Positions 1 through 21,918 of a DNA stretch of 21,918 bases are shown here, piece after piece. Position numbers and translations under genes: made by a program. Each line of letters opens with the position of its first letter. Position 1 is the first letter of the stretch. The notes beneath the pieces are model-generated. The model worked only from the letters and a program-made list of their open reading frames with translations, ran no database searches and had not been told where the DNA came from. Origin of the DNA: a virus. The DNA lies in the IMG/VR virus record IMGVR_UViG_3300020439_000097, positions 1 through 21,918 of that record; one strand, 5' to 3'.

Positions 1-215
1 ACATCCTGGAATGTTAATTCCGGAGGCTGGTCCCAATTAACAAAGAACCAGCCATCCTCTATTGCTCTTTCTACAACTTGATCTGAAGTGTATCCGGTTT
101 TAGATAAATATCTGAATGTTCCTTTATCTGTAATACACTTCAAATCAGAGACCCATTTATCAGTTGATCGAAGTTTGTTTTGTGCAAACCAACTTAAAAA
201 AGGTTTATTAATCAT
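1..215 (-). CDS. Hypothetical protein, partial (C-terminus beyond window)
   Basis: This is the last visible gene of the leftward operon. It opens at an ATG whose complement is at 213-215 and stays open to the window edge, giving about 71 residues that begin MINKPFLSWFAQNKL. The start overlaps the stop of the gene before it as ATGA, and a GAGGG Shine-Dalgarno (SD) sits a few bases upstream inside that gene's last codons, so coupled translation is likely. The peptide is mixed in charge and rich in Trp and Phe, with no signal peptide or membrane segment in the visible part. I do not recognise the family. It is probably an early accessory protein, judging only from position. Confidence 0.7.
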   Translation of the reverse strand, partial: MINKPFLSWFAQNKLRSTDKWVSDLKCITDKGTFRYLSKTGYTSDQVVERAIEDGWFFVNWDQPPELTFQD

Positions 216-514
216 TTACCCTCACAGACTTTCATGCAGATCTCTTCTGCTAGTTTGTTAGAAGTAAAATATCTATCCTTCTTATTGAATGGGATATTGT
301 TGGCCATAAAGAGTTTGTGCACCTTCACTCTCTGAAAAGGTGTGGCATCTCTTAACCACCATTTAACTTCATGATCCCAGAAATAAGCCTGGCCCATATA
401 GTGATCTGTACCAACAAATGATTTATCTAATTTATTGATAGCTCTAGCTGAGACTGTATCGTAATTTAAGACCAGCTCGATCTTCCAATGTTCTTTCATA
501 GATACTTTGTTCAT
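212..514 (-). CDS. Hypothetical small protein, leftward operon
   Basis: This encodes 100 residues and is rich in Trp, Tyr and Lys (for example FWDHEVKWWLRDATPFQRVKV in the middle). It has no membrane segment and no motif I recognise. The start overlaps the upstream gene's stop as TAATG, and the SD AAAGGAGGG lies just upstream, which is close to optimal. Its own end carries GAGGG, the SD for the next gene, and its stop overlaps that gene as ATGA. The context (leftward, short, divergent from the replication genes) suggests an early accessory role such as host takeover or anti-defence, but nothing in the sequence proves it. Confidence 0.75.
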   Translation of the reverse strand: MNKVSMKEHWKIELVLNYDTVSARAINKLDKSFVGTDHYMGQAYFWDHEVKWWLRDATPFQRVKVHKLFMANNIPFNKKDRYFTSNKLAEEICMKVCEGK

Positions 515-795
515 TAGCCCTCCTTTTTCTTAATTAAATAAATTCCATCACTTTCATTATCGTAATGACAATTTATGTTTAAGTTTTTTTCATCACAAAA
601 ATCTTGTATTGCAAGAGTGTCGTGATCATACATACCAGGCGAATAATCCTCCCATAGAAGATTGCATTTTTTCTCAATCCATGTTTTGTAGTCTGGATAT
701 AATTCTCCAAAATCTACATCGTCATTGACCCATCCAAAATGCTCAACCTCTGTTGGAATATTAATAACTTCTTTTTTTAATTTTAAGTTATTCAT
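514..795 (-). CDS. Hypothetical acidic small protein, leftward operon
   Basis: This encodes 93 residues and is acidic (many Asp and Glu, with DDVDFGELYPDY near residue 25), apart from a Lys-rich C-terminus. Small acidic phage proteins are sometimes DNA mimics or inhibitors of host enzymes. That is only a possibility here, because no family is recognised. Start and stop both form TAATG overlaps with the neighbouring genes, and the SD AAAGGGAGGG precedes the start. The protein ends IKKKEG, and those codons double as the SD of the following gene. No signal peptide or membrane helix is visible. Confidence 0.75.
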   Translation of the reverse strand: MNNLKLKKEVINIPTEVEHFGWVNDDVDFGELYPDYKTWIEKKCNLLWEDYSPGMYDHDTLAIQDFCDEKNLNINCHYDNESDGIYLIKKKEG

Positions 796-1004
796 TATCC
801 CTCCCTTTTTTGTAAGATTGATAATAGTTGACCCTTCTCAAGTCTTTTATGTCCCCACTTGATAGGAGCATCTTTAAAATCTTCGAGTTTAATTTTATTA
901 TCTAGAAGATTTAAAACATCTATTAAAGGTGCTCTGTAAGTGTCATTGCCTTTTACAAACTCTAGTCCAAAGTTTGCTGTTACTCGTACATTGTCCCAGG
1001 CCAT
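795..1004 (-). CDS. Hypothetical small protein, leftward operon
   Basis: This encodes 69 residues. The N-terminal half looks like short strands (MAWDNVRVTANFGLEFVKG). The C-terminal half has the charged helical stretch DVLNLLDNKIKLEDFKDAP and ends LQKREG. TAATG overlaps join it on both sides, with a GGGAGGG-type SD directly before the start. I do not recognise the family. The strong SD and perfect operon fit make it a real gene despite its size. Confidence 0.72.
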   Translation of the reverse strand: MAWDNVRVTANFGLEFVKGNDTYRAPLIDVLNLLDNKIKLEDFKDAPIKWGHKRLEKGQLLSILQKREG

Positions 1005-1486
1005 TATCCCTCCCTCTTTTCTAATGCTACAGAGTTAACATTGTTTAGTCTTTTTTCTTTTTCTTCTGTGCTTAGTTGGTCCCAATCTTCCGGAAATTGT
1101 ATTCCAGGAACTTTTTCATAGAACCTTTTTTGATATTTAACTTTAGCCTCTTTATCATTCTCAGATAAAAGACCGAACATAGCTGAAACCATGCCAACAG
1201 TTTTTAACATATCCGGAGCTGGTTTATCTTCATAGCCTCTAGCTTTTTCAAAAGAGCTTTTAAAATCTTTGTGTGGTATTCTTAAAAACTTTCTTTCTAC
1301 TCCAGCATAATCCTCAATCCAATTAAGGTGTTTTGCTGTTGTTACACTCCAGACATTTTCTGAAATTGTAAGTTGACCATCTTTAATAAAAGCTACCGGA
1401 GTAGTGTAAGAATAAAAAACTACTAAACCATCTTCATGCTTTTTATAAAGATTTCTTGTTGATCTTAGATATACTTTTGCACTCAT
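1004..1486 (-). CDS. Hypothetical protein, first gene of leftward operon
   Basis: This encodes 160 residues, beginning MSAKVYLRSTRNLYKK. I chose the ATG complementary to 1484-1486 because AAAGGAGGT lies 3 bases before it. The longer in-frame starts (GTG at 1534, ATG at 1525) fall at about the predicted transcription start and have no SD. Residues about 25-60 read FYSYTTPVAF, then SENVWSVTTAKHLNWI. From memory this pattern (YSY-T-VA, then TT-KH-I) recurs in small phage and plasmid proteins of unknown function, of the kind labelled DUF8033. I am not certain of that assignment. The C-terminal half is charged and helical and ends EKREG. The gene is transcribed from the promoter at 1540-1568, away from the replication genes. 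Confidence 0.8.
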   Translation of the reverse strand: MSAKVYLRSTRNLYKKHEDGLVVFYSYTTPVAFIKDGQLTISENVWSVTTAKHLNWIEDYAGVERKFLRIPHKDFKSSFEKARGYEDKPAPDMLKTVGMVSAMFGLLSENDKEAKVKYQKRFYEKVPGIQFPEDWDQLSTEEKEKRLNNVNSVALEKREG

Positions 1487-1539
1487 GGGACCTCCTTTTG
1501 TTGTTTCCTTGTTAATTGTTCTCATATTGTGCACCTAGA

Positions 1540-1568
1540 GTAATAGTATATTTCTAATATATCGTCAA
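1540..1568 (-). promoter_or_regulatory. Sigma70-type promoter for the leftward operon
   Basis: On the minus strand TTGACG (complement of 1563-1568, 5/6 match to the -35 consensus) is followed by a 17-base spacer and TATTAC (complement of 1540-1545, 4/6 match to the -10). This predicts transcription starting near 1533, about 47 bases before the chosen start codon at 1486. The region also separates two divergent operons, so operators for the neighbouring ribbon-helix-helix protein could lie here. I see no comparably good rightward promoter between 1500 and 1590. Confidence 0.6.
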
Positions 1569-1594
1569 CATATATTTTAAATAAAGGAGAAAAT

Positions 1595-1813
1595 ATGTCA
1601 AAAAAGCCAAAATTAGTTGGTGTTTACTATAAAATCCCACAAGAACTAAAGGACAAACTCCAGGACCAAGCCAAAATTGAGAGAATACCGGTGGCAACCC
1701 TAGTTTGTGATATGTTAGAATTGAGCCTGGCCATAAGGCCCAAGGTCAGACAAGACCGGCTCGATAAACTCGTAAATTCTGCAAGAGGGATGGTGTCAGA
1801 TGTCAAAAGATAA
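1595..1813 (+). CDS. Ribbon-helix-helix (Arc/CopG-like) DNA-binding protein, putative
   Basis: This encodes 72 residues. Residues about 6-14 (KLVGVYYKI) fit a short DNA-contacting beta strand. A helix (PQELKDKLQDQAKIE), a turn (RIPVA) and a second helix (TLVCDMLELSLAI) follow, which is the classic layout of a dimeric ribbon-helix-helix fold. The tail is basic. The start has AAAGGAG 6 bases upstream. It is the first gene of the rightward early set and faces the leftward promoter, a natural place for an autoregulator controlling both directions. The fold call rests on pattern rather than a signature motif. The target site is unknown. The 3' end overlaps the next gene by 14 bases. Confidence 0.65.
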   Translation: MSKKPKLVGVYYKIPQELKDKLQDQAKIERIPVATLVCDMLELSLAIRPKVRQDRLDKLVNSARGMVSDVKR

Positions 1814-2165
1814 AATTAATCCGGACCATTACAAAAATAATTCAATCGAAACATTTAAAGCAATCACTTCACAATTCACAGAGGCTGAAACAATCGGAGC
1901 TATAAAATTTAATATTGCAAAATATATTTTTAGAGCTGGTAAGAAGGTCCAGAGCCTGGAAGGTGCAAGAGAAGATGTCAGCAAGGCTCATTGGTACACC
2001 GAGAAACTTTTGCAAGTGTTAAACGATTTAATTAAAAAAAGAAATAAGGACCCGAACAGAGAATTGACAGACGATGAACTTGAAGATCTGCTCAACCCTG
2101 GTCGAGTTATAAAATTTAAAAACAAAAGGAAAAAACATTACGATGACGACAAAGATCCCAAATAA
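1800..2165 (+). CDS. DUF3310 / T7 gp1.7-like nucleotide kinase family protein
   Basis: This encodes 121 residues. Residues 7-70 carry the DUF3310 pattern: NPDHY (7-11), IETF (16-19), FNIAKYIFRAGKK (37-49) and EDVSKAHWY (58-66). In this family T7 gp1.7 is known as a thymidylate/nucleotide kinase that feeds phage DNA synthesis. The other members are mostly uncharacterised, so kinase activity here is inferred. Residues 75-121 are a highly charged, probably disordered tail (KNKRKKHYDDDKDPK). The gene overlaps the upstream gene by 14 bases and the downstream gene by 23 bases, so the set is probably one transcript. Confidence 0.85.
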   Translation: MSKDKINPDHYKNNSIETFKAITSQFTEAETIGAIKFNIAKYIFRAGKKVQSLEGAREDVSKAHWYTEKLLQVLNDLIKKRNKDPNRELTDDELEDLLNPGRVIKFKNKRKKHYDDDKDPK

Positions 2166-2697
2166 TGTAATGAAACCTCCGAAGGGTTTCGAGTATGTAA
2201 TAAATAAAGATCCATCCAAGCCAAGAGTTTCAGTACAAAGGCAAGACAAAAAAGATAATGAAAGAATTTCGCAGCTTGAGGACATGATTTTTAACTTACA
2301 AGACGAGCTCAGAGTATTAAAAAGAAATCAAAAGCAGCAGATTAACTCTTCAAATCAGAAACAAAAAAGAGTTTGGATGGAAGATATATTGGATGCAGTC
2401 TGTAACCATTTTAATGTTGGTAAGGATTATATTCTGAGCCCTAAAAGATATGCTGAGATTGTAGAGATAAGATCATGCTTTATTAATTTATGTTATGAAT
2501 TAACTAATGCCTCTCAACCAGCTATTGGCCGGTATTGTGGAGGAAGAGATCACACAACAATCATTCATCATGTAAGACTTAAAAGAAACAAAAGTAATTG
2601 CTGGGACATAAGGACCAAGAATGGCTTAGATTTATGGAATGACTTCAACAAACTATCAACTAAGCTGAAGGCCGAGGCTGAACCCGATAATGAATGA
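2143..2697 (+). CDS. Stand-alone DnaA domain IV (DnaA-box-binding) protein
   Basis: This encodes 184 residues. Residues 1-35 are loose. Residues about 36-66 form a likely coiled coil (ISQLEDMIFNLQDELRVLK). Residues about 80-147 match the C-terminal DNA-binding domain of bacterial DnaA: DILDAVCNHFNVG, then CYELTNASQPAIGRYCGG and the signature GGRDHTTIIHH (133-143). In DnaA this motif reads GRDHTTV and contacts the DnaA box. There is no AAA+ ATPase module, so it cannot open an origin as DnaA does. It could bind DnaA-box-like sites as a replication or transcription factor, or compete with host DnaA. I did not spot a perfect TTATNCACA box in the window. It shares an ATGA overlap with the replication-like gene downstream. 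Confidence 0.85.
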   Translation: MTTKIPNNVMKPPKGFEYVINKDPSKPRVSVQRQDKKDNERISQLEDMIFNLQDELRVLKRNQKQQINSSNQKQKRVWMEDILDAVCNHFNVGKDYILSPKRYAEIVEIRSCFINLCYELTNASQPAIGRYCGGRDHTTIIHHVRLKRNKSNCWDIRTKNGLDLWNDFNKLSTKLKAEAEPDNE

Positions 2698-3569
2698 CAA
2701 AAGATAAGCCAGACTATGGAAAAGGCAAGACACCTGGACACTTCTGCGTCATACCACAACGAGCTGTTGCTGATATAAGATTTAAGAAGTATCCGAGAAC
2801 CTTCATGGTGCTTTGTGCTCTGGGTAATTATACATCCAGGCAAGGTGTCTGTTGGCCGAACCAAATCACTATTGCTAAAGTATTAGGAATAAAGTCTCAG
2901 TCTACTGTATCAAAACATATTAAAAAATTAATTGATATGGGTTATATAAGATATGCTAAGAAACATCCTGGACTGAAGGGCAACAAGTATTTTATGGTGT
3001 TCGATCCGGATATTACTGAAGAGGATGCGAAGGCTACAGCTACAGATCAAGATCGAGCCTATGAGGAAAAGCCAGAAATACCTAAAGGACCTAAGATGAA
3101 TGATAAGACCAAGTATTCACTCAGAAGGAATACAAAGAAAGAGGAAAAAGCTACAGTAAAAGCGAGGGATAAAGAAGATATTCACTACAAGGAATATGTA
3201 GATATTCATTCAGAGACGATACATAACAACAAACTTAACAATGATATATACCCTATAGGTAAATCTATATTAAATAAGTTTAAGAAACTAACCGAAGAGA
3301 TATTCGGTCAACACATACAGTACGATCAAGGCCAACTTGATTTAGTCTCTTCCTGGATAAAAGATAAGGGATTGACCGAAGATTATGCTGTAAAAAGAAT
3401 AAAGGAAGTATTAACCTGGCGAAGAAATAACAAGCGAGATAGTGTGAAAACAATTAAATTCTTTGAATATGTATTCTTTAAACAAGATAAACCCAAGGAT
3501 AATAAGGAACTAATACAAAGGATTGTTAAGAAGATAGCAAGGTCCAAGAGTATAAGGAATTATAAATAG
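2694..3569 (+). CDS. Winged-helix replication-initiator-like protein
   Basis: This encodes 291 residues. Residues about 30-102 form a winged helix: CWPNQITIAKVLG, the recognition helix SQSTVSKHIKKLIDMGYI (68-85), then a wing (KGNKYFMVFDP). This resembles the N-terminal DNA-binding domain of phage replication O-type and HTH_36 proteins. Residues about 105-180 are a charged, probably disordered linker. Residues about 185-270 form a second small helical domain (ILNKFKKLTEEIFG to KTIKFFEYVFF), also typical of such replication proteins. The protein is basic overall. It overlaps the DnaA-like gene by ATGA, and the gene-free stretch right after it could be its target or an origin. A transcription regulator is the main alternative. 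Confidence 0.7.
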   Translation: MTKDKPDYGKGKTPGHFCVIPQRAVADIRFKKYPRTFMVLCALGNYTSRQGVCWPNQITIAKVLGIKSQSTVSKHIKKLIDMGYIRYAKKHPGLKGNKYFMVFDPDITEEDAKATATDQDRAYEEKPEIPKGPKMNDKTKYSLRRNTKKEEKATVKARDKEDIHYKEYVDIHSETIHNNKLNNDIYPIGKSILNKFKKLTEEIFGQHIQYDQGQLDLVSSWIKDKGLTEDYAVKRIKEVLTWRRNNKRDSVKTIKFFEYVFFKQDKPKDNKELIQRIVKKIARSKSIRNYK

Positions 3570-3667
3570 TAAACGAACCTTTACACTTTATAAAAGCTAG
3601 GCTTTACGCAGAGAATATACGAAAATAGAACATTTGCGTACATCGGTGGTACAAAAAGCGAACACCT

Positions 3668-3778: not shown

Positions 3779-4093
3779 ATGTCTAACGGACCGACACACA
3801 GCAACCGAACCTTCAAGCTAATGAGAACTACTACCTTATCAGAAGGAAAGTATATTATCGAAACTTGGAAAGGTTCTAATTACAATAAAGAGACTGGGGA
3901 AAGAACTGATGTCCCTGGAGCTTTAGATATTAAGATCTATAATTTAGATCCATCTAAAGAATATAACAAGGGAGATGCAGTTATCTTTTTCAGAGTGTTT
4001 GAGAATGATAATTCTAGCAAAGGGAATATACCTCAACACCAGCAATCAGCAGCAGAAAAGACTGAACTAAAAGATGACGAAATCCCCTTCTAA
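3779..4093 (+). CDS. Putative single-stranded-DNA-binding-like protein
   Basis: This encodes 104 residues. It ends DDEIPF, almost identical to the acidic DDDIPF tip through which bacterial SSB proteins recruit partners. Residues about 10-75 alternate polar and hydrophobic positions as expected of beta strands (KYIIETWKG, GALDIKIYNL, GDAVIFFRVF), compatible with a small OB-like barrel. A polar linker (about 76-95, rich in Gln, Ser and Asn) joins this to the tail, as in SSB. I see no classical SSB core motif and the protein is short, so the function is inferred mainly from the tail. The position after the replication genes agrees. It overlaps the small terminase gene by 20 bases. Confidence 0.55.
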   Translation: MSNGPTHSNRTFKLMRTTTLSEGKYIIETWKGSNYNKETGERTDVPGALDIKIYNLDPSKEYNKGDAVIFFRVFENDNSSKGNIPQHQQSAAEKTELKDDEIPF

Positions 4094-4577
4094 AAAAAGG
4101 ATCGTTAAGCCTCCTCTGGATCGTTTCGGTGGTATCCGAGTGGTTCAGAGAAGGTTAAAGAAATCCGAAGTGATCGAGCACAACAAAGAAAATGTTGCTC
4201 AAGAACTTATTGATATAGCAACGGCTAATATTGCCGATATTGTTTGGTGGGATGACCAGGGCAATGTCTCTGTAAAAGATCCTAAAAACATACCTAAAGC
4301 AGCAATCAAAGCTATTAAAAAAATAAAAATGATCCCGACAAAAGCCGGTCCTCAGTTGGAAGTAGAACTGCATGATAAAGTTTCTGTGTTAAGAACTTTA
4401 GCTAAAGCATCTGGTTTATTAGAAAGCCAGGATGATGTAGAACGACCATCTGTAGTTGGGATTGTAATGCATGGACCCGAACCTAAAATAATTGATGGAG
4501 AAATAGATGAAGAGAAAATTGAACCACAGCGAAGTGGAGAGGATCCAAGTGGTGATGTTAAAGAAACAACTAAGTGA
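4074..4577 (+). CDS. terS: Terminase small subunit
   Basis: This encodes 167 residues. Residues about 42-120 match the central and C-terminal part of phage small terminase subunits: ELIDIATANIADIVWWDDQGN, then NIPKAAIKAIKKIKM and KVSVLRTLAKASGLLES. In that family the segment forms the oligomerisation core of the DNA-recognising ring that loads genome ends onto the large subunit. The N-terminal 40 residues are basic and lack the usual helix-turn-helix. Residues about 130-167 are acidic, Pro-rich and probably disordered, and that part overlaps another reading frame (4507-4695). The direct position before the large terminase supports the call. Confidence 0.75.
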   Translation: MTKSPSKKRIVKPPLDRFGGIRVVQRRLKKSEVIEHNKENVAQELIDIATANIADIVWWDDQGNVSVKDPKNIPKAAIKAIKKIKMIPTKAGPQLEVELHDKVSVLRTLAKASGLLESQDDVERPSVVGIVMHGPEPKIIDGEIDEEKIEPQRSGEDPSGDVKETTK

Positions 4578-4695
4578 TAGGCAATGTGCAGATCTCGCTG
4601 GTCGAACACTTGCCGATTGGAGAGATATTGTATTTAAAAAAAAATCGGAAGATGATACAACAATCAAATCTATGCTTGAAAGATTAGAACAATGA
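4507..4695 (+). CDS. Small helix-turn-helix protein overprinting the terS 3' end
   Basis: This encodes 62 residues in the +1 frame relative to the small terminase gene, overlapping its last 71 bases. The ATG at 4507 has GGAG 6 bases upstream. Residues 6-20 form a helix (NHSEVERIQVVMLKK). LSDRQCADLAGRTLADWRDIV (22-42) then reads as a helix-turn-helix with a typical Ala-Gly turn. The remainder is charged. The stop overlaps the large terminase start as ATGA. Because the small terminase here seems to lack its own DNA-binding HTH, this protein might supply DNA binding to the packaging complex, or it might be a regulator. Both are inferences. An internal ATG at 4555 would give 46 residues but would cut the first helix. 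Confidence 0.6.
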   Translation: MKRKLNHSEVERIQVVMLKKQLSDRQCADLAGRTLADWRDIVFKKKSEDDTTIKSMLERLEQ

Positions 4696-6212
4696 GTAGT
4701 GCAATAACTAATCTTAATTTAGATTTCTCTACATCACCTACTGTATGGAAGTTTCTAAAAGATAAAAGTTTTGTTAGAGGTTTAATGGGTCCAGTTGGAT
4801 CCGGTAAATCGTATGCTTGTGCAGCAGAGATTATGCTTAAAGCTGTGAGCCAGGTACAAAGTCCTCGAGATGGGATCAAGTATTCTAGATTTGTTGTTGT
4901 GCGTAATTCTTATCCGGAACTGAGGACAACTACTATAAAAACATGGCAAGAATTATTTCCAGAAAACATTTGGGGACCATTTAGATGGAGCCCTCCATTG
5001 ACGCATCATATAAAATTACCACCGAGAGACGGAGCTCCAGGAATAGATTGTGAAGTTATCTTTTTAGCTCTTGATCAACCTAAAGATGTTAGAAAGTTAT
5101 TATCAATGGAGTTGACTGGTGCATGGGTTAACGAGGCAAGAGAATTACCTAAAGCTGTTATAGATGGATTAACACACAGAGTTGGAAGGTATCCTACATT
5201 ATCAGATGGTGGAGCAAAACCCTGGAGAGGAATTATTATGGATACGAACCCAATGGATGATGATCATTGGTGGTATAGATTATCTGAAAAAGAAAAGATG
5301 TCTGGCCAGTATGCCTGGAAGTTTTATAAGCAGCCAGGTGCAGTTATTGAATACACTAAAGATGATTTACCGGAAAATCCAGAGGCTAATGGTTTTATTA
5401 TGTCAGCCAATAAATGGTGGATGTCTAATCCTAAAGCAGAAAATAAAAAAAATTTACCTAACGGATACTACGAACAAACACTACTCGGAAAGAATATAGA
5501 TTGGATTAGATGTTATGCTCAAGGTTTATATACTTATGTTCAAGAAGGCAAAGCTGTTATTACAGAGTACGATGATAACATTATGTCAACGGATGTTATA
5601 GAGCCAGATCCATCTGTACCAATTCAAGTTGGTGTTGACTTTGGTTTAACTCCAGCAGCTATCTTTGGCCAAAGATTAACTAATGGTAGATGGGTTATCT
5701 TACATGAGCTTGTAACTTTTGATATGGGTCTTGAAAGATTTGGGACCATGTTAAAATCAGAACTCGCAAGTCGATTTCCAAAGTTTGATGTTTTAGTTTG
5801 GGGAGACCCGGCTGGACAAAAGAGAGATGAGATTTATGAAGTAACTGCATTTGATCATTTAAGATCTATTGGATTGACTGCTAGACCAACTGCAACGAAT
5901 GATTTCAAAGTAAGACGAGAGGCTGGTGCAATGCCTATGAATAGATTGATAGATGGTAAGCCAGGATTATTGATTGACAAAAAATGTAAGAGACTTCGTA
6001 AAGCATTGAGTGGTGGTTATCATTTCAAAAGAGTACAAGTAACCGGGCAAGAAAGATTTAGAGATCAACCTAACAAGAATGAACATTCCCATGTCGGTGA
6101 TGCTTATATGTATTTATTATTAGGTGGTGGTGAACACAGAGCTCTAACTAGAGGATCTAATCCTAAATTCAGACAAGCTACAGCCAATACAGATTTTGAT
6201 ATTTTTGCATGA
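4692..6212 (+). CDS. terL: Terminase large subunit (packaging ATPase-nuclease)
   Basis: This encodes 506 residues and is the motor that pumps DNA into the prohead and cuts it. The Walker A motif is GPVGSGKS (33-40). The Walker B region is around LTGAWVNEARE (141-151), with the catalytic Glu in NEA. IIMDTNP (181-187) fits the coupling motif. The C-terminal RNase H-like nuclease has its metal-binding aspartates in VGVDFG (D316), VWGDPAG (D372) and SHVGDAY (D470). Length and motif order are complete. The start overlaps the HTH gene by ATGA and follows the small subunit, the usual arrangement. The packaging type (repeats, cos or headful) cannot be told from this sequence. Confidence 0.95.
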   Translation: MSSAITNLNLDFSTSPTVWKFLKDKSFVRGLMGPVGSGKSYACAAEIMLKAVSQVQSPRDGIKYSRFVVVRNSYPELRTTTIKTWQELFPENIWGPFRWSPPLTHHIKLPPRDGAPGIDCEVIFLALDQPKDVRKLLSMELTGAWVNEARELPKAVIDGLTHRVGRYPTLSDGGAKPWRGIIMDTNPMDDDHWWYRLSEKEKMSGQYAWKFYKQPGAVIEYTKDDLPENPEANGFIMSANKWWMSNPKAENKKNLPNGYYEQTLLGKNIDWIRCYAQGLYTYVQEGKAVITEYDDNIMSTDVIEPDPSVPIQVGVDFGLTPAAIFGQRLTNGRWVILHELVTFDMGLERFGTMLKSELASRFPKFDVLVWGDPAGQKRDEIYEVTAFDHLRSIGLTARPTATNDFKVRREAGAMPMNRLIDGKPGLLIDKKCKRLRKALSGGYHFKRVQVTGQERFRDQPNKNEHSHVGDAYMYLLLGGGEHRALTRGSNPKFRQATANTDFDIFA

Positions 6213-7916: not shown

Positions 7917-8191
7917 TGGGATTTTCTAAGGAACATAAAAATCCTAGTGGTGGTCTTAATGCTAGAGGTAGAGCTTTTTTTAAAAGAACTGAAGGTAGTA
8001 ATTTAAAAGCACCAGTATCTAAGGGAACTAATCCGAGAAGGGTATCCTTTGCAGCGAGGTTCTCCAAAGTTAAAGGACCATTAATGAAAGATGGTAAACC
8101 AACAAGATTAAAACTTGCATTAAAGAAATGGGGTTTTGGATCTAAAGAGGCAGCAGCTAAGTTTGCTGCAAACAATAAGGCTAGAGCATAA
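7916..8191 (+). CDS. Small basic DUF6321-like protein
   Basis: This encodes 91 residues and is basic. The layout is SGGLNARGRAFFKRTEGSNLK (11-31), then APVSKGTNPRRVSFAARFSK (32-51), then KPTRLKLALKKWGFGSKEAA. I recall this SGGL / GSNLKAPV / RRxSFxARF pattern from a widespread group of small phage proteins annotated DUF6321, with no known function. The assignment is from memory. TAATG overlaps join both neighbours, and the next gene is the portal, so a virion or packaging role is plausible. Confidence 0.72.
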   Translation: MGFSKEHKNPSGGLNARGRAFFKRTEGSNLKAPVSKGTNPRRVSFAARFSKVKGPLMKDGKPTRLKLALKKWGFGSKEAAAKFAANNKARA

Positions 8192-9792
8192 TGCATTTAA
8201 AAGCACAACAAGTATTAGATAGATCAAACAAAGCATTTACTCGTAAAGAGTTATGGAGAACTATCTATGAAGATTGTTATAGATATGCTTTACCACAAAG
8301 AAATTTATACGAAGGTTACTACGAAGGAAATGTTCCTGGCCAAAATAAAATGAACATGATCTTCGACAGTACAGCAATTCATTCCGTACAAAGGTTTGCT
8401 AACAGAATACAGTCTGGCCTATTTCCTCCATATAAAAAATGGTGCAGACTTGAGCCTGGGAATGAAATACCAACAGAGAGAAGAGCAGAGGTTCAGACAG
8501 CTCTCGACCTATATTTAGATAAAATGTTTAGTGTACTCCGTCAATCAAACTTTGATTTAGCTATAGGTGAATTTCTACTCGATCTCTGTGTTGGTACTGC
8601 TACAATGCTTATTCAACCAGGTGATGACATTAATCCAGTTAAATTTACACCAGTCCCACAATACCTTGTTGCATTAGAAGAAGGACCAAATGGAACTGTA
8701 GATAATGTTTATCGTAAATACAAAGTTAGAGCAGAGGCTATTACAAGACAGTTTCCAGATGCTAATATACCAGAGACTTTGCAAAGACAAATAGATGATA
8801 AACCACAAGAGCAAATAGAACTTATAGAGGCTGTTATCATTGATGTTGATCGTGGTGATTATTGTTACCATGTGTTACATGAAAAATCTAAAGAAGAGTT
8901 AGTATTTAGAAGAATGGATCAAAGTCCATGGATTGTAAGTAGGTATATGAAAATTCCAGGTGAAGTATTTGGAAGAGGTCCATTAGTTTCAGCATTACCA
9001 GATATTAAAACTTTAAATAAAACTTTAGAACTATTATTAAAAAATGCATCAATAGCTTGTGCTGGTGTTTATACAGCAGCAGACGATGGTGTTATTAATC
9101 CTTCTAATATTCGTATTCAACCTGGATCTATTATTCCAGTTGCAAGAAATGGTGGACCACAAGGTGCATCATTAGCTCCATTACCTAGATCTGGAGATTT
9201 CAATGTATCTCAAATCGTTATTAATGATTTAAGAATGAATATTAAAAAGACTTTACTAGATGATACTTTACCACCAGATAATATGTCAGCTAGATCTGCA
9301 ACAGAGATTGTAGAAAGAATGAAAGAACTTGCTCAGAATATGGGTGCTGCATTTGGTAGACTTATAACTGAGACGATGGTTCCAATCATTCGTAGAACAC
9401 TCTTCATTATGGATCAAAAAGGAATGATCCAGCTCCCTTTGAAGGTTAATGGGCTAGAGGTTAAAGTTACTCCTGTTAGCCCATTAGCAAAAGCACAAAA
9501 TTTAGAAGAGATAAATGAAGTTATGCAATTCTTTCAAATAGCAAACTCATTAGGACCAGGAGGTGTTGCAGAATTAAAACCAGATGCTATAGCAACTTAT
9601 GTTGGTGATAAACTTGGTATACCATCTGAACTTAGAACTACACCAGAAGAGAAACAACAAGTATTACAACAAAGCATGGCAATGTTCTCACCAGAGGCAG
9701 CTATGCAAGGTGCACCAGGAGGAGCTCCGGCAGCACCTACACCACCAAGCAATGAACCAGTAGAGGCAGTAGAAGAACAATTAACATCATGA
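8191..9792 (+). CDS. Portal (head-tail connector) protein, T7 gp8-like
   Basis: This encodes 533 residues, close to T7 gp8 (536). It forms the dodecameric ring at one capsid vertex through which DNA enters and leaves, and to which the tail binds. The N-terminus (RKELWRTIYEDCYRYALPQR) followed by IFDSTAIHSVQRFANRIQSG (58-77) is the hallmark of the podoviral connector family. PWIVSRYMKIPGEVFGRGPL (about 246-265) and SARSATEIVERMKELAQNMG match the wing and stem region. The C-terminal 40 residues are Ala/Pro/Gln-rich and probably disordered. The stop overlaps the next gene by ATGA. Confidence 0.93.
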   Translation: MHLKAQQVLDRSNKAFTRKELWRTIYEDCYRYALPQRNLYEGYYEGNVPGQNKMNMIFDSTAIHSVQRFANRIQSGLFPPYKKWCRLEPGNEIPTERRAEVQTALDLYLDKMFSVLRQSNFDLAIGEFLLDLCVGTATMLIQPGDDINPVKFTPVPQYLVALEEGPNGTVDNVYRKYKVRAEAITRQFPDANIPETLQRQIDDKPQEQIELIEAVIIDVDRGDYCYHVLHEKSKEELVFRRMDQSPWIVSRYMKIPGEVFGRGPLVSALPDIKTLNKTLELLLKNASIACAGVYTAADDGVINPSNIRIQPGSIIPVARNGGPQGASLAPLPRSGDFNVSQIVINDLRMNIKKTLLDDTLPPDNMSARSATEIVERMKELAQNMGAAFGRLITETMVPIIRRTLFIMDQKGMIQLPLKVNGLEVKVTPVSPLAKAQNLEEINEVMQFFQIANSLGPGGVAELKPDAIATYVGDKLGIPSELRTTPEEKQQVLQQSMAMFSPEAAMQGAPGGAPAAPTPPSNEPVEAVEEQLTS

Positions 9793-11008: not shown

Positions 11009-11860
11009 ATGGCACAATCAATAACCAATGCTTTTGTAACTTTGTTCGATGCCGAGGTAAAACAAGCATATCAAGGTGAAAGCTCACTTTTAGGATGTGT
11101 AAGGCTAAGACAAGGTGTACAAGGCAACACTTACAAGTTTCCAAAACTTGGTAAGGGGTCTGCTACTGCTAGAATACCACAGACTGATGTTACTCCATTA
11201 AATGTAACATACAGCCAGGTAACGGCAACTATGTCAGACTACAATGCTGCTGAATACTCAGACATCTTCCATCAAGCAAAAGTAAACTTTGATGAAAGAC
11301 AAGAGCTTGTTCAAGTAGTATCTAAAGCAATCGGTAGAAGAATGGACCAACTAATCATTGATGGATTAAATGGTGCATCTTCACCTTCAACTGTAGCTAA
11401 AACAGTAGTAACATCTGGATCAGCAGCAGCATCTAACTTAAATGTTGGAAAGCTAATCGCTGCTAAAAAAGCTCTTGATGCAAACAATGTTCCGTTTGAT
11501 GACAGACACATTGTTGTTCATGCTAATAACCTTTCTGGTTTATTAGGTGATGAGAGAGCAATTTCTGGAGACTTCGCAACTGTGAAGGCTTTGGTTGCTG
11601 GTGAGATCAACACTTTCTTAGGTTTCAGATTTTATGTAATCGGAGACAGAGATGAAGGTGGTCTACCATTATCAACAAACGACAGAAGTGTGTTTGCGTT
11701 CCATAGATCAGCAATAGGTATGGCAACTAACATGGCACAAAAAACTGAGATCAACTATGTTCCGGAGAAAACTTCGTTCTTAGTTAACTCTATGTTTAGT
11801 GCTGGTGCTGTAGCGATTGATGACGAAGGTATCGTTAAAATCACTTGTGATGAAAGCTAA
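11009..11860 (+). CDS. Major capsid protein
   Basis: This encodes 283 residues. It follows the scaffold, has its own leader and the strong SD AAAGGAG. Its codons end in C more often than those of its neighbours (AAC, GAC, TTC), as expected of the most abundant virion protein. The sequence (VVSKAIGRRMDQLIIDGLNG in the spine-helix region, TFLGFRFYVIGDRDEGG, and VNSMFSAGAVAIDDEGIVKI at the C-terminus) fits HK97-fold capsid proteins of marine podoviruses. It is shorter than T7 gp10A (345 residues). No protease is encoded nearby and no N-terminal propeptide is evident. A strong terminator lies one gene downstream. Confidence 0.88.
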   Translation: MAQSITNAFVTLFDAEVKQAYQGESSLLGCVRLRQGVQGNTYKFPKLGKGSATARIPQTDVTPLNVTYSQVTATMSDYNAAEYSDIFHQAKVNFDERQELVQVVSKAIGRRMDQLIIDGLNGASSPSTVAKTVVTSGSAAASNLNVGKLIAAKKALDANNVPFDDRHIVVHANNLSGLLGDERAISGDFATVKALVAGEINTFLGFRFYVIGDRDEGGLPLSTNDRSVFAFHRSAIGMATNMAQKTEINYVPEKTSFLVNSMFSAGAVAIDDEGIVKITCDES

Positions 11861-12209: not shown

Positions 12210-12845
12210 ATGGCAAGTGGAGATACAAATGTAACAATCTGTAACCAAGCATTAAATTTGCTCGGTGCTGATACTATTTCATCTTTCTCAGATACTACAA
12301 ATGATGCTGCAACTGTCTGTAATAATATTTACGAAACTGTAAAACGACAAACTCTTTCAATGTACCCTTGGTCATTTGCAATGACTAAAGTACAACTATC
12401 TAGATCAGCTACTACTCCAGTTAATGAATGGGCATATCAATACGATTTACCATCTACTGCTTTATCTGGAACTCCAGTACAAGTTTATAATTCTAGCTCG
12501 ACAAGAGTATTACCAATACAAAATTACGAATTACTATATACGGCCTCTGGTCCAACAATAGCTACAAATGAAGAGAAGATCTATATTGATTATATAACTT
12601 CTGCAATAACTGAAGGTGTTATGCCTTCTTATTTTGTTCAACTGCTAACATACATGATGGCATGGCATTTAGCAGAACCAGTAACAGATCAAATTACTAA
12701 ATCTGATTACTGGAGAAAAGTGGCTGTTGGGACCGAGACGGAGAATGGTAGGGGTGGGTACTTCCGTCAAGCAACAAATGTTGATGGTAGAGGTAAACCT
12801 AATTATTTTATAACTGATTTTCCATTAACAGATGTTAGAAATTAA
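12210..12845 (+). CDS. Tail tubular protein A (T7 gp11-like adaptor)
   Basis: This encodes 211 residues, close to T7 gp11 (196). The N-terminus (ICNQALNLLGADTISSFSD) and ETVKRQTLSMYPWSFAMTKV (42-61) are the hallmark of the tubular tail A / gatekeeper family. A ring of these subunits binds the portal and seats the nozzle. Later motifs (EWAYQYDLP, LLTYMMAWHLAEPVT) also fit. The SD is weak (AGGA), and the gene follows the strong terminator, so expression is probably lower than that of the capsid. The stop overlaps the next start as TAATG. Confidence 0.92.
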   Translation: MASGDTNVTICNQALNLLGADTISSFSDTTNDAATVCNNIYETVKRQTLSMYPWSFAMTKVQLSRSATTPVNEWAYQYDLPSTALSGTPVQVYNSSSTRVLPIQNYELLYTASGPTIATNEEKIYIDYITSAITEGVMPSYFVQLLTYMMAWHLAEPVTDQITKSDYWRKVAVGTETENGRGGYFRQATNVDGRGKPNYFITDFPLTDVRN

Positions 12846-14818
12846 TGAGCAGAGCTGTAACGATACAATCAAACTTTACAACGGGTGAGATAGATCCGTT
12901 ACTAAAATCTCGTATAGATATTAATCAATATTATAATGCATTAGAAGAGGCTAGAAATGTTTTGATACAGCCACAAGGTGGTGTTGAGAGACGACCTGGT
13001 TTACAATTTATTAATGAGATACCAAGTGCTGCATCACCTGGAGATGGATTTAAGTTAGTACCTTTTGAATATTCAACTACACAAAGTTATATGTTGTTAT
13101 TTACAAACAACAGAATGTATGTTTACAAAAATAAAGAATTAGTAACTAATATTAACGGATCTGGTAATGATTATTTAACAACTACTATTGCAGCAGCTAG
13201 AATAGCTAACATGGATTTTGCACAATCAGCAGATACTTTGATTGTTGTAGAAGAGGACATGGCTCCAAAAGAAATTGTTAGAGGTGCAAGTCATAGCTCA
13301 TGGACAATATCAGATATAACATTTGATCATACACCTAAATATCCTTTTACTATTTCTACAACATCTGGAACATCAACTTTAACTCCCTCTGCTGTAGATG
13401 GTAATATAACACTTACAACTGGATCTGCTTTTTTTACAACTGGTTCAAGTCAAGTTGGTCAGTATGTAGAGGCCAATGATGGATTAGGTAGAGCAAGAAT
13501 AACTAATGTAACATCTACTACTGTTGTAGAGGCTATAGTTGAAATACCTTTTTTTAATACAAATGCTATTGCAAGTGGTTCATGGTTTTTAGAAACTGGG
13601 TATGAAGATACTTGGTCCTCAACAAAGGGTTATCCTAGATCAGTAACTTTCCATGAAGGAAGATTATATTTTGGTGGAGCTAAATCTAGACCTAATACTT
13701 TGTTTGCATCTAGAGTAGCAAGATTTTTTGATTTTAATCCAGGTGAAGGATTAGATGATGATGCTATAGAAGTTACAATAGCAACAGATAGTACAAATGC
13801 TATAACTGGTTTATTCTCTGGTAGAGACTTACAAATCTTTACAAAAGGTGCAGAATATTTTTTACCACAGTCTACACTAGATCCTATTACTCCATCTAAT
13901 GTTGTAATCAATGGTGCAACAAGAAGAGGATCTAAAGAAGGTATAAAACCAGTTGGTGCTGAAAGTGGAACTTTATTTATACAAAGAGCTGGTAAGGCAT
14001 TAAGAGAATTTTTATTTAGTGATGTAGAGTTATCATACATATCAAACAATATTTCATTGTTATCTTCTCACTTGCTCAAGTCCCCTAAGTCAATGGCATT
14101 GCGAAAAGCAACATCAACGACTGATGGGGACTTATTGTTATTAGTGAATGATACAGACGGGTCCTTAGTTACTTATTCTATTTTAAGAGGACAAAATGTT
14201 ATTGCTCCAAGTTTAAATACAACAGATGGAACATTTGAAGGTGTAGCTGTAGATGTAGATCAAATCTATGTTGTAGTAAAAAGAACTATTAATAGTGCTA
14301 CAAAATATTATGTAGAAGTTTTAAATGATGACAACACAACAGATTGTGCAAAGTTATTATCTGGTGCAAGTAAACCATCAACAACTACTGTAACTGGATT
14401 AAGTCATCTTCAAGGCAAGACTGTTAAGGTTATAGCTGATGATGCTATGCAATCAGATAAAACAGTTAATGCATCTGGTGAAATTACATTAGACGCAGTA
14501 CCTACAACTTATGTTGAGATAGGATTAAATTATACACCTAGTGTAAAAACCTTACCGGTAGAATTAAAATTACCTAGTGGTAATATTATGGCTCAAAGGA
14601 AAAGAATTGTAGAGGCTACAGCTAATTTATATCTCTCGCAAAATTTAACATTAAATGGTAATGATTTCTTATTTACAGCCGGTGATTTTTTTACTGGAAA
14701 AAAAAGAAGGAAACCAATGTTAGGATATGATAAAGAAGGACAGATGACATTTTCCCAGTCTCAACCTTTATTTTTTACATTATTGGGAATAGAATTTAAA
14801 GTGAGTGTAGGACAGTAA
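12845..14818 (+). CDS. Tail tubular protein B (T7 gp12-like nozzle)
   Basis: This encodes 657 residues (T7 gp12 has 794). The N-terminus (QSNFTTGEIDPLLKSRIDIN at residues 8-27, then LIQPQGGVERRPGLQFI) is diagnostic of the podoviral tail nozzle. The interior is beta-rich (KSRPNTLFASRVARFFDFN, then GRDLQIFTKGAEYFL), as expected of its propeller domains. Six copies form the tail tip that opens for DNA ejection. No SD is evident, so translation probably depends on the TAATG overlap with tail tube A. A stretch near 14060-14180 is richer in G/C-ending codons than its surroundings. Confidence 0.93.
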   Translation: MSRAVTIQSNFTTGEIDPLLKSRIDINQYYNALEEARNVLIQPQGGVERRPGLQFINEIPSAASPGDGFKLVPFEYSTTQSYMLLFTNNRMYVYKNKELVTNINGSGNDYLTTTIAAARIANMDFAQSADTLIVVEEDMAPKEIVRGASHSSWTISDITFDHTPKYPFTISTTSGTSTLTPSAVDGNITLTTGSAFFTTGSSQVGQYVEANDGLGRARITNVTSTTVVEAIVEIPFFNTNAIASGSWFLETGYEDTWSSTKGYPRSVTFHEGRLYFGGAKSRPNTLFASRVARFFDFNPGEGLDDDAIEVTIATDSTNAITGLFSGRDLQIFTKGAEYFLPQSTLDPITPSNVVINGATRRGSKEGIKPVGAESGTLFIQRAGKALREFLFSDVELSYISNNISLLSSHLLKSPKSMALRKATSTTDGDLLLLVNDTDGSLVTYSILRGQNVIAPSLNTTDGTFEGVAVDVDQIYVVVKRTINSATKYYVEVLNDDNTTDCAKLLSGASKPSTTTVTGLSHLQGKTVKVIADDAMQSDKTVNASGEITLDAVPTTYVEIGLNYTPSVKTLPVELKLPSGNIMAQRKRIVEATANLYLSQNLTLNGNDFLFTAGDFFTGKKRRKPMLGYDKEGQMTFSQSQPLFFTLLGIEFKVSVGQ

Positions 14819-17245: not shown

Positions 17246-18666
17246 TGAATGATTTAGAAAAAGCATACATTAATTATTTAGATAGCTTAGAAGTTGATAG
17301 TGTACTTACAAAGGATGGTTACACTATAAATAAAAAAGGTTATGAAATATTTGGTGTTAATCTAGAAGAGGCTGAGAAGGGTGCAGAAAAAGTATCTGAG
17401 GTTATGTCAGATATAGGGACCGGTATAAAAAGAGGTGGAGCTAAATTAGTTGAAGGTGCTGGATCTCTTGCATTAGCTGGATTAGAAAAATTAGATTTAA
17501 TCTCAGATGGATCTGTACAAAAATTTGGTGAGTTTTTTGCTAAAGAAGTTTATCCAAGAATGGGAGAGACAAAAGGATTACCTGGAGACTTAACAGAAGG
17601 AGTTGTACAATTTCTTACTCCAGGTGTCGGATATTATAAATTATTTGGTACATTAATGAAAGTACCTAAAACTGCTAGTACAATAAGAAAGTTTTTAAAT
17701 AATGTAGGAAAAGTTACAGCAGCAGAGGCAGCAGCAGTTGGTACAGCTCAAGTAGCTGGTGATCCAAACTTTGCTGGTTTTTTAGTAGAGCTTTTAGATA
17801 TAGATATAGAAAAAGCAAATGGCCTTACAAAAGAGTTTGCAACATTTTTAACTACACCAGAAACATCTAAAAATGCAGATGCAGTATTAAAAGATAAAGT
17901 AAAAGCAATAGTTACTGATACACCAGTAGCTTGGGCAGCAGAAGGTTTAGTAGCTTTTGCAAAAATATTAAAAGGTATAAAAGGTGATCCTAAAATAGAA
18001 GAAGAAGTATTTGATATTAATAATCCACCTCCAGGTGCTATTGAAGAACCAATGCCACAAAGAGGAGATCCAGATTTTCAAGAAACAGTAACAGATCCTA
18101 ACGCAGATATTAAACAAGAATTAAAGGATGATATAACTGCACAACTAAAAATGGATGATGTATCTAGTTTATTTAATACAATTACTAAAAACCCAGAAGG
18201 ATTTTCTGTTACAATAAATGGCAAAACTCCGGCAGATTTAGGGTATGAAGGTGGCTATATGGTAGCACCTTTGAAACAAACTGAAATAGTGTTTGATAGT
18301 AAAACATTTAGTAATGCAGATGTTGAAAAACTACTAGATAATGTAGAGGCTTTAGAAAAAACATTAGATGGTAGATATGCTGAAGTTTATGCTGGTGGAT
18401 GGTTAGAAAATGGTAAATATTATCTAGATGCATCTGTTAGAATTGACAACCTAGATGATGCTCTGTATATTGCCCAGAGTGGAAATCAATTAGGAATATT
18501 TGACTTAAAGGAGTTTAAAACCATTGACACAAAAGAAGGCATCGAACAGCTCAAACAAACTGGATCTTATAGCTCTACCAAAGACAGCAAACAGAGAGCA
18601 GAGACGAAAGCTATTGGTGAAGGCTTTGAAAAAGCAAGGATGGAAACTGAGGGAGGATCCGAATGA
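17245..18666 (+). CDS. Internal virion-associated protein with C-terminal beta-rich domain
   Basis: This encodes 473 residues. Residues 1-240 are Ala/Gly-rich helices (GIKRGGAKLVEGAGSLALAG, VQFLTPGVGYYKLFGTLMKV), suggesting membrane-active or tube-forming segments. Residues about 250-310 are an acidic linker. Residues about 318-445 form a separate alpha/beta domain: GYMVAPLKQTEIVF, then YAEVYAGGWLENGKYYLDAS and DDALYIAQSGNQLGIFDLKE. I recall this GGW...GKxYLD...AxxxAxxxNQxxIFD pattern as a recurring domain in large phage proteins, with unknown function. The position between gp15- and gp16-like genes makes it an ejection-complex partner. It overlaps the next gene by ATGA. Its last 80 codons are richer in C-ending codons than the rest. 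Confidence 0.7.
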   Translation: MNDLEKAYINYLDSLEVDSVLTKDGYTINKKGYEIFGVNLEEAEKGAEKVSEVMSDIGTGIKRGGAKLVEGAGSLALAGLEKLDLISDGSVQKFGEFFAKEVYPRMGETKGLPGDLTEGVVQFLTPGVGYYKLFGTLMKVPKTASTIRKFLNNVGKVTAAEAAAVGTAQVAGDPNFAGFLVELLDIDIEKANGLTKEFATFLTTPETSKNADAVLKDKVKAIVTDTPVAWAAEGLVAFAKILKGIKGDPKIEEEVFDINNPPPGAIEEPMPQRGDPDFQETVTDPNADIKQELKDDITAQLKMDDVSSLFNTITKNPEGFSVTINGKTPADLGYEGGYMVAPLKQTEIVFDSKTFSNADVEKLLDNVEALEKTLDGRYAEVYAGGWLENGKYYLDASVRIDNLDDALYIAQSGNQLGIFDLKEFKTIDTKEGIEQLKQTGSYSSTKDSKQRAETKAIGEGFEKARMETEGGSE

Positions 18667-21629
18667 TACCAAAGGACAACCTTCTCAACAAGGATAATAA
18701 ATTAGAAGATAAAGATCTTACTTTTCTAGATCAAGTTTTACCAGAACCAAAACCTTTAGTACCAGATACATCTGAAGATAAATCTATTGAAACTGTAGAA
18801 AGTGAAAAAGAATATATTGAACCTCAAGAACAAGAGGAAATTCTTTTAGCTGGACCAATCCCTAAAAATTTTAAAATAAAAAAGAAAACTCTTACAGATA
18901 AGAGTGCAGATGATTTGACTAATAAAGAATTAGGAGATCAACAACAAGAGCAATTAAAAACAAAAACAGAAGGAGAGACTTTTGTATTTGAACAAGGAAC
19001 TGGTAAAGCAATATTTTCTGATTTTACAGATGAGCAAATGCTTGACATTGAAAAATCATTACAAAAATTTGGTTTAGGTGATTTAGATCCAACAAAAAAA
19101 AGATCTTTAAAATTTATATTTGATGAGCTTGATGCAGATATAAAAGGAAACAAATTATTAGATACAAACAAATTTTCAGATTTAGTTACAAAATTTATTC
19201 CTAAAGGAAAAACAACTACTATTAAAGATATAATGGAAGAGGCATCTAATCTTAATAGATCTGATGTTTATATGAAACTTCTAAAATTAAAAGAAGGCCA
19301 AACTGTTGATATACCTACAATGGTCCGAGGTGTTATGGAGGCAAAACTTTTATATATTAAATTAAGAGACATAGGATTAAGAGCAGCAGAAGGTAAATTT
19401 ACAGAATTAGATAAACAACAATTTTATCAACTATATAGATTATGGGGTTCTCTGTATGCAAAAACAGCCGGAGATATTAGCTCTAGAGCATCTGGAATGA
19501 GAGTAATACAATCTATTGATAAACCTACAAAAGAAGGTGCTGAAGATATTATAAAATTATTAGAAGATGAAATGGGAGCAGATTTTTCAGATGAAGGTTT
19601 CCAAAGATTTACTCAAGCATTTGTTGAGCTAAAACCATTTCAAGCTGGTAAGATGGTTAAAGATAGTTATGGTAAAAAACTTAGAGATGCTTGGGCAGAA
19701 GTCTGGGTTAACTCAATGTTATCTTCTCCAATAACTCATGCTGTCAATGTTGTAGGTAACACTACATTTAATTTATTAAGAATATCTGAATATGCTATTG
19801 CTGCTGGTATTAATAAAGTACCAGGATTAGGTGGTCCAGATGGTGTAGCTTTTTCTGAAGTTATGCAAATGATTATGTCAATGAAAACCGGCACAAGATT
19901 AGGTTTTGAAAACATGACAAAGGCTATAAAAAGTGGAGGCCAAGTACAAACAACAAAATTAGATTTAAGAAAAACAAATGCTTTTGGTAAACGATTATTA
20001 CCAGAAGGTATGCAAAATAATTTTTATGGTAAATCTTTAGAGTTTATGGGCTCTATGTACAGACTACCTGGTACTGCATTAGTAGCAGAAGATGAATTTA
20101 TGAAGGGTATTTTGTATAGAATGGAATTAGAAAGAATAGGTAAAGTAAAATATAATGAACATTTAAAATTAAATCCAGGTGATGTTGATGGTGCTGAAAA
20201 AGCATTTTTAGATACAGTTAATAATCCTAACAATGCTACAGTTGATGAGGCTCAACAATTTGCATTAGAAGGTACATTCCAACAAGAATTACCAGATGGT
20301 GTTTTAAAAAAATTTCAATCTGTATTTAATATTCCAGAAATGAAATTATTTGTTCCATTTTATAAAACAATCACAAACATATTTTTAGAAAGCAGCAAAA
20401 GAAATCCAGTTATAATGGCTCCTTTTATTGCTGGTAATCCTAAATTAAAAGCAGACTTTTTAGGTAAAAATGGAAAAAGAGCACAACAATTAATGTTAGC
20501 TAAATTATCTACTGGTACTTCTTTAATGGTAGGTTTTGGTATGTATGCTTATGGTGTTAATCAAAATAGTAGTGATTTTATGATAACGGGTATGGCTCCA
20601 TATAATAAAAAAGAAAGAGAAATGTTTTACAGAGAAGGATTACAACCATACTCATTATGTGAAAAAAAAGGTAACACTTTTAAATGTACATCGTATTCAA
20701 GATTTGACCCAGTATCATCTTTGTTAGCTATCTCTGCTGATTTTGCATACTTATCAAGTAGGCCAGATCAATATGGTAGAGTAGGTTATGGAAATGAAAT
20801 GGCTAATATGGCTGCTGCTGCATTAGGATCTATATTTCCATATTTAACACAACAACCATTTTTAACTGGACTACAAGAAATATCTAGAGTGTTTCAACCA
20901 GGTGCATTTGATCCAGCAAATGTTGGTGGTTCAGCTTTTGCATTTTTAACAGAGAAAGTTTCTGAAGGTGCATTGGCTTTAGTGCCAGGAAACTTAGGAA
21001 GTTTTGGTAGATATTTACAAAGGATGCAAGATAATACAATTTATCAAACAGATATTACTGCATCTCAAGATGCATGGTACAGAGAAACTTTTGGAGAGAA
21101 TGAAGATATACCTTTACCAATTAGAAAATTCTATAAGGCTTATAATGGTATGATGTTGCAAAGCCCATTCTTTAATGAAAAATTAAGACCTAAATTAAAT
21201 TTTTGGGGTGAACCAATTAAAGGACCAGAGCAAGGTTATTTATCACCTATTAGAGTTAAAAATTCTAAATACAAAAAAGTAGATGAAATGTTAGTTAAGT
21301 TAGGTTTTGGTATTGCAATGCCTAGAGCATATATAGCTGGAATACCATTAAACCAAGATGAGTATTATCAATATATAAAACTAATGAATAAAAACAACGA
21401 AATGTTAGATGAATTAAATACATTGGTATTAGACCCAGACTTCCTTACTACATCTATAGAAGATCCAGATACTGCTTTAAACGACATACAAAGTGTTGTA
21501 GAAGGATTTAGACAAGAGGCACAAGAATTATTTTTATCAGATCCTAAGAATAAAAATTTCTTAGCAAGAAAAACAAAGATTGATAATATGAAAAATGAAA
21601 GAATTAAAAAGAGGTTACAAAATAATTAA
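18663..21629 (+). CDS. Large internal virion / DNA-ejection protein (T7 gp16-like position)
   Basis: This encodes 988 residues (T7 gp16 has 1318). Residues 1-110 are acidic and disordered. Residues about 115-350 are helical. SPITHAVNVVGNT (about 355-367) matches a motif I know from very large marine phage ejection proteins. Hydrophobic segments occur near 617-632 (GTSLMVGFGMYAYGV) and around 700-740. No lysozyme-type catalytic motif (as in the T7 gp16 transglycosylase domain) is visible, so cell-wall opening must lie elsewhere. It probably forms the inner-membrane end of the DNA channel. The stop overlaps the tail fibre start as TAATG. Confidence 0.82.
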   Translation: MIPKDNLLNKDNKLEDKDLTFLDQVLPEPKPLVPDTSEDKSIETVESEKEYIEPQEQEEILLAGPIPKNFKIKKKTLTDKSADDLTNKELGDQQQEQLKTKTEGETFVFEQGTGKAIFSDFTDEQMLDIEKSLQKFGLGDLDPTKKRSLKFIFDELDADIKGNKLLDTNKFSDLVTKFIPKGKTTTIKDIMEEASNLNRSDVYMKLLKLKEGQTVDIPTMVRGVMEAKLLYIKLRDIGLRAAEGKFTELDKQQFYQLYRLWGSLYAKTAGDISSRASGMRVIQSIDKPTKEGAEDIIKLLEDEMGADFSDEGFQRFTQAFVELKPFQAGKMVKDSYGKKLRDAWAEVWVNSMLSSPITHAVNVVGNTTFNLLRISEYAIAAGINKVPGLGGPDGVAFSEVMQMIMSMKTGTRLGFENMTKAIKSGGQVQTTKLDLRKTNAFGKRLLPEGMQNNFYGKSLEFMGSMYRLPGTALVAEDEFMKGILYRMELERIGKVKYNEHLKLNPGDVDGAEKAFLDTVNNPNNATVDEAQQFALEGTFQQELPDGVLKKFQSVFNIPEMKLFVPFYKTITNIFLESSKRNPVIMAPFIAGNPKLKADFLGKNGKRAQQLMLAKLSTGTSLMVGFGMYAYGVNQNSSDFMITGMAPYNKKEREMFYREGLQPYSLCEKKGNTFKCTSYSRFDPVSSLLAISADFAYLSSRPDQYGRVGYGNEMANMAAAALGSIFPYLTQQPFLTGLQEISRVFQPGAFDPANVGGSAFAFLTEKVSEGALALVPGNLGSFGRYLQRMQDNTIYQTDITASQDAWYRETFGENEDIPLPIRKFYKAYNGMMLQSPFFNEKLRPKLNFWGEPIKGPEQGYLSPIRVKNSKYKKVDEMLVKLGFGIAMPRAYIAGIPLNQDEYYQYIKLMNKNNEMLDELNTLVLDPDFLTTSIEDPDTALNDIQSVVEGFRQEAQELFLSDPKNKNFLARKTKIDNMKNERIKKRLQNN

Positions 21630-21918
21630 TGGCTACATTTAATATCAATGAAGTTGCAAGACGAGCTCAGTATACATCTACTGGCCAAGATGGTCCTTAT
21701 GCTTTTAACTTCCAGGTAAATGCTGCATCTGAATTACAAGTTTACAGAAATGATAATTTGCAAACAGACAGCACACACTACAATGCTACAGTAGGTGCAG
21801 ACGGAACCGGGTCTATAACTTTTATTGATGATAGTGGATCGGGTGGAACAGACCATACTCCAGTCAATGGAGATCTAATTACTATTATTGGTGATCAACC
21901 ATTATCTAGAACAACAGT
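21629..21918 (+). CDS. Tail fibre/spike protein N-terminus, partial
   Basis: This starts at the TAATG overlap and is open to the window end (96 complete codons). The first residues (NINEVARRAQYTSTGQDGPY), then FNFQVNAASELQVYRND, THYNATVGADGTGSITFIDD and DLITIIGDQPLSRTT, match the N-terminal virion-binding domain of T7 gp17-type fibres, which plugs into the junction of tail tubes A and B. The receptor-binding part, which sets host range, lies beyond the window. SD-like GAGG is about 15 bases upstream, so coupling to the preceding gene probably matters. Confidence 0.88.
   Translation, partial: MATFNINEVARRAQYTSTGQDGPYAFNFQVNAASELQVYRNDNLQTDSTHYNATVGADGTGSITFIDDSGSGGTDHTPVNGDLITIIGDQPLSRTT

Follow-up and report, generated by a model that had tools for sequence, protein, structure and literature searches.

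Absence of GAAGC/GCTTC and of further words resembling Type II restriction sites in a podophage genome fragment and its relatives

The avoidance of restriction sites by phages is an established phenomenon. It concerns almost wholly the sites of orthodox Type II systems, for which complete elimination is typical in non-temperate phages, while Type IIG, III and I sites are little avoided (Rusinov et al. 2018, PMC6286503). Similarly, the depletion of GANTC splits the phylogeny of the pelagiphages (PMC9516812). Of interest in the phage described here are the number of missing sites and a possibly undescribed specificity, GAAGC.

The window analyzed is the whole length (21,918 bases) of the IMG/VR record IMGVR_UViG_3300020439_000097, a phage genome fragment. 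It is part of a podophage distantly related to the OM43 phage MEP301, in an aquatic (marine or estuarine) and probably non-temperate lineage. Related contigs number in the hundreds. The window also carries an internal virion protein gene, and the features needed below are the following:

4692 to 6212, plus strand: terminase large subunit (TerL), the marker for the family tree; best cultured relative MEP301, 68%
8191 to 9792, plus strand: portal / head-tail connector
11009 to 11860, plus strand: major capsid protein (MEP301, 65%)
12845 to 14818, plus strand: tail tubular protein B-like
4577 to 4692, plus strand: junction between the gene at 4074 to 4577 and TerL, an optional site for a C5-cytosine methyltransferase in the relatives L106, L231, L267 and L050; empty in the window

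The phage protein encoded at 2143-2697 has the C-terminal DNA-binding domain of DnaA and adjoins a replication-initiation-like gene.

Neither GAAGC nor GCTTC occurs in the 21,918 bases, as the original prediction had stated from the sequence. Base composition gives an expectation of 24.3 (about 26 had been predicted), and a maximal-order Markov model gives 30.1 (z = -5.5), which makes this the most depleted 5-mer of the window. In 1000 synonymous codon shuffles that preserved every protein and the codon usage, 38.8 +/- 4.3 occurrences were expected (z = -9.0). Both the Markov and the shuffle comparison had been proposed as checks, and the shuffle null is not near zero. The one-base neighbors GAAGA (94), GAAGG (76), GAAGT (57), AAAGC (84), CAAGC (32) and GAGGC (40) are frequent. 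The statement that all five-base neighbors are common holds for these six but has a sole exception in GAATC, which is absent because GANTC is likewise avoided.

The deficit is visible in codon choice. All 32 Glu-Ala pairs counted (33 in the original prediction) are GAG-GCN and none is GAA-GCN, although outside these pairs GAA exceeds GAG by 337 to 113 (P about 6e-20 for the contrast). The 18 Ala-Ser pairs with a TCN serine (about 19 in the original prediction, which had described them as lacking GCT and mostly using GCA) have GCA 16 times, GCC twice and GCT never, against 233 GCT and 232 GCA among the alanine codons. Lysine between a G and a C is AAA in 15 cases and AAG in none. The deficit thus affects both strands and several reading frames, mostly through synonymous changes, and spans genes.

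Moreover, GAAGC is not alone. In a ranking of all 4- to 6-mers and interrupted palindromes, with thousands of words tested, eight named words including GAAGC each reached P<1e-4. The detection pipeline made 13 calls in the real coding sequence and 0 in 12 codon-shuffled windows. The counts against expectation are 0/38-39 for GANTC, 0/17-18 for GCNNGC and 0/15-16 for CASTG, the expectations for degenerate words varying with the Markov model, and 0/12-13 for ACGT, 0/12 for CCTGC, 0/11 for CCTGA and 0/9 for CCGC. GTSAC stands at 0/8. The missing words fall into two sets:

1 to 21,918, no strand: words with an individually significant deficit, GANTC, GCNNGC, CASTG, ACGT, CCTGC, CCTGA (CCTGT occurs once) and CCGC; P<1e-4 each
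1 to 21,918, no strand: words at zero for which the window by itself lacks power; pooled kin support most of them, namely GGACG, GAAGAC, GATATC, CTGCAG, AAGCTT, CAATTG, ACCGT and ACGCT

The pooled close relatives (183 kb) added GGACG, ACCGT, ACGCT, GAAGAC, GATATC, CTGCAG, AAGCTT, CAATTG, ACTAGT, AGTACT and CTTAAG; the group was picked by its avoidance profile, which makes the pooled counts a description of the clade and not a test. For six-base words, where the window itself has too little power, the evidence comes from these pooled kin, whose relatedness means that they are not independent. Other words at zero, namely GTSAC, GAATGC, GAATTC and CAGCTG, vary among the kin. GCTAGC, GCAAGC, GCCAGC and GCATGC merge into the single interrupted palindrome GCNNGC. 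About eight of the 64 six-base palindromes are emptied, such as GATATC (2/45), CTGCAG (0/38) and AAGCTT (1/39) in the pooled kin; most others are near expectation, with AGATCT at 145/146 and TTTAAA at 240/256 in the same comparison, which rules out a general avoidance of palindromes. A scan for bipartite Type I-like sites gave no convincing signal. The near absence of CCTGC, CCTGA and CCTGT from the window goes along with an enrichment of CCWGG (55 versus 18 expected).

The avoided words have the shape of Type II sites: specific palindromes, the interrupted palindromes GANTC and GCNNGC, and CASTG with its degenerate center. Many of them are well-known Type II sites, those of HinfI, Cac8I, TspRI, MaeII, AciI, BbsI, EcoRV, PstI, HindIII and MfeI. 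We know of no enzyme for GAAGC, CCTGC, CCTGA or GGACG, and neither GAAGC nor GCTTC was found as an enzyme specificity in the open-access papers that were searched.

The distribution of GAAGC across the family is sharply divided. In the avoiding clade, the window and eight contigs of 25-36 kb (nine contigs, 273 kb in all) together have the word twice versus 274 expected, 0 or 1 per contig. Because membership of this clade was the basis on which they were picked, independent evidence comes from the contrast with relatives and from the comparison of aligned sites. Family members whose TerL is 86-88% identical to that of the window have normal numbers (L018 43/51, L053 30/29, L042 20/26, observed/expected), as do the cultured phages MEP301 (85/81) and Hodr (49/53). 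This comparison with related phages, also suggested originally, therefore separates an avoiding clade near zero from other members at normal levels. GAAGC avoidance follows the phage lineage and not protein content, and on the TerL tree the GAAGC state must have changed at least 5 times, 3 of these changes being forced by well-supported branches. The avoided sets themselves differ: L139 avoids GATC (3/69) and also GGTGA, L060 avoids CTNAG (0/74) and ACTGG (0/37), and L124 is without TCGA and ACGG.

Alignment of TerL to 84,980 species genomes returned only scattered MAG contigs from a mixture of taxa, with no member of the avoiding clade among them. GAAGC is normal in one relative, L184, which lies in a 186-kb Hyphomicrobiales contig (65% GC). 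A further contig, G049 (60.6 kb; L326-L328), considered as a candidate for carrying host DNA, is instead an apparent chimera of two related phages, in which the avoidance of CCGC, CASTG and GGCC ends near 21 kb.

The closest comparison is given by L106, the TerL sister and nearest TerL relative of the window (fork support 100/100), in which GAAGC occurs 37 times versus 30 expected. GANTC, CASTG, ACGT and CCGC are still avoided there over almost the whole length. In addition, L106 newly avoids AGATCT (0/9) and GGGAC (0/7), both of which are normal in its kin. None of the 22 aligned L106 GAAGC sites is kept in the window, versus 117 of 233 neighbor words (P = 1e-6); most of the 22 differ there by one base, GAGGC being the commonest replacement. 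A move to a host strain with other enzymes would be expected to produce just such a trade of one avoided word for two. Separately, the tail-fiber stretch of L106 (L222, contig G001 25,600-26,500) holds 19 CCGC and most of the CCTGC of the contig, both almost absent elsewhere, and we read it as a recent import or a misassembly.

The swapping of avoided motifs between sister phages, one by one, is best explained by Type II site avoidance under changing host strains. Selection has very probably purged the window lineage of the Type II restriction sites of the bacteria it infected, GAAGC among them, and we infer that the selective agent is a host restriction endonuclease of the orthodox Type II(S) kind. 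Phage DNA without the recognition site would escape cutting on entry, so that site-destroying and mostly synonymous changes (GAA-GCN to GAG-GCN, GCT-TCN to GCA-TCN) would be favored until no site remained. When a lineage shifted to host strains with other enzymes, the old sites would drift back and those of the new enzymes would vanish, and each sister lineage would end with its own avoided set. Since Type IIG, III and I sites are little avoided according to Rusinov et al., an asymmetric 5-bp site would need a Type IIS-like enzyme. The number of avoided sites is large for a single host, and several host strains may have contributed to it. The original proposal of DNA-site avoidance under host restriction is well supported by the failure of the shuffle null, the involvement of both strands, the spread over genes, the normal GAAGC of MEP301, Hodr and the family members with 86-88% identical TerL, and the switching between lineages. 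GAAGC is, however, no lone signal: it belongs to a set of 8 to 20 or more avoided words, many of them matching known Type II specificities.

Among the other explanations, the one that survives best, though still unlikely, is that self-methylation replaces avoidance: L106 would tolerate GAAGC through its own C5-cytosine methyltransferase, with a target-recognition region that includes this word. Among the close relatives of the window, L106 alone shows normal GAAGC throughout a long contig, and it encodes such an enzyme (P0001; PF00145, 1e-49) directly upstream of TerL. The clade of L267 and L090 likewise has the gene, with GAAGC, CCGC and CASTG all normal, while the methyltransferase-free L157 avoids all three; in L054 and L169, the enzymes are near-identical apart from a swapped target-recognition region. 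Against this, L231 has an enzyme almost the same as that of L106, target regions included, yet GAAGC stands at 0/4 in 5.5 kb. Moreover, L050 and L048 have the gene and counts of 0/10 and 0/5, L145 lacks it and has 27/35, and the two new avoidances of L106 point to a change of host. Presence of the gene thus agrees with the return of GAAGC in L106, L267 and L090 and disagrees in L231, L050, L048 and L145. As a full explanation of L106, the methyltransferase was set aside as unproven. It is possible that a phage methyltransferase represents a second strategy beside site loss.

The gene upstream of TerL is an optional cassette in L106, L231, L267, L050 and others, with variable target-recognition regions. 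C5-cytosine methyltransferase genes whose target-recognition arrays are exchangeable were seen in L221 (contig G001, 12554-13711, minus strand), L054, L169, L267, L231 and L050. Pfam recognized no methyltransferase of any family in the window genes scanned, in a record that covers part of the phage genome, and tblastn of the L106 enzyme to the window gave no match. The N4/N6 methyltransferase family PF01555 was absent in 30 records searched, the whole window record among them.

Somewhat less probable again is a different sequence-reading defense (BREX, phosphorothioation-linked or Type III) in place of Type II restriction. The asymmetry of GAAGC resembles the sites of several such defenses. 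Type III systems, however, tolerate sites in one orientation, and the word is at zero in both. The words avoided together with GAAGC are palindromes typical of Type II sites, and Type I and III sites are seldom avoided in phages (PMC6286503).

That a phage nuclease degrading host DNA has these specificities, the phage sparing itself, appears very improbable: the annotation of MEP301 does include a putative endonuclease, but one nuclease cannot account for eight or more unrelated, independently switching words, and no restriction-like gene was recognized among the window genes scanned. Weakest of all is a codon-pair, dinucleotide or mutational bias of phage or host with no enzyme involved, which the biased codon usage and AT-rich genome might suggest but which is refuted by the codon shuffles (expectation far above zero), the aligned L106 sites and the silent shuffled controls, and which also runs against the several reading frames and both strands affected, the normal neighbor words, the interrupted palindromes hit as wholes and the normal GAAGC numbers in near-identical proteins of relatives.

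If loss of host Type II sites is the correct reading, metagenomic phage genomes would reveal the sites cut by their hosts without culture or methylome data. Because near relatives erased different sets, phage genomes would be readable as a record of the DNA-cutting enzymes of their hosts, and with counts of 0-2 against 30-60 the sets would be distinct enough for the prediction of enzyme specificities, among which GAAGC may be a new one. They could also group phages by host strain and expose chimeric contigs as well as genes imported recently, and the rate of restriction-site exchange on host change would be measurable from phages. More tentatively, with the chances a little short of even, GAAGC would be an undescribed but common Type II specificity of an uncultured aquatic host group, and the phage family a quantitative, motif-by-motif record of the restriction repertoire of the host population, with sisters differing by single enzymes.

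The window resembles the cases of Rusinov et al. (PMC6286503) in that Type II-like sites are wholly eliminated, strongly so in apparently non-temperate dsDNA phages, and in that the avoidance is missing in relatives presumed to live on other hosts. It differs in having 8 individually significant words in a 22-kb fragment and sets that differ between sister phages; its relatives give 16-24 raw avoided-word calls, overlapping words included. As in the pelagiphages (PMC9516812), these are marine podophages with GANTC gone in some clades only, but there a single motif is tied to a host methyltransferase, whereas in the window GANTC is one of many. MEP301, a Methylophilales (OM43) phage, and the MEP301-type metagenomic phages (PMC8024684) share related proteins (TerL 68%, capsid 65%) and an apparently similar gene order. 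MEP301 itself is without comparable multi-site avoidance, as its GAAGC count illustrates, and its GC content is 40% versus 34% in the window. Finally, in the Pelagibacter phage EXVC031P Hodr (OQ414635; L325) some ten Type II-like words are avoided as well, namely ACGT, CCWGG, CCTTC, GGTGA, CATCG, GAGAC, GCWGC, GGNNCC, GAAGAC and GCGC. Its set is different, with GAAGC at normal levels, and its TerL is only 45% identical to that of the window. That about ten words are avoided in a phage with the listed host HTCC1062 suggests that such sets may reflect a host population rather than one strain.
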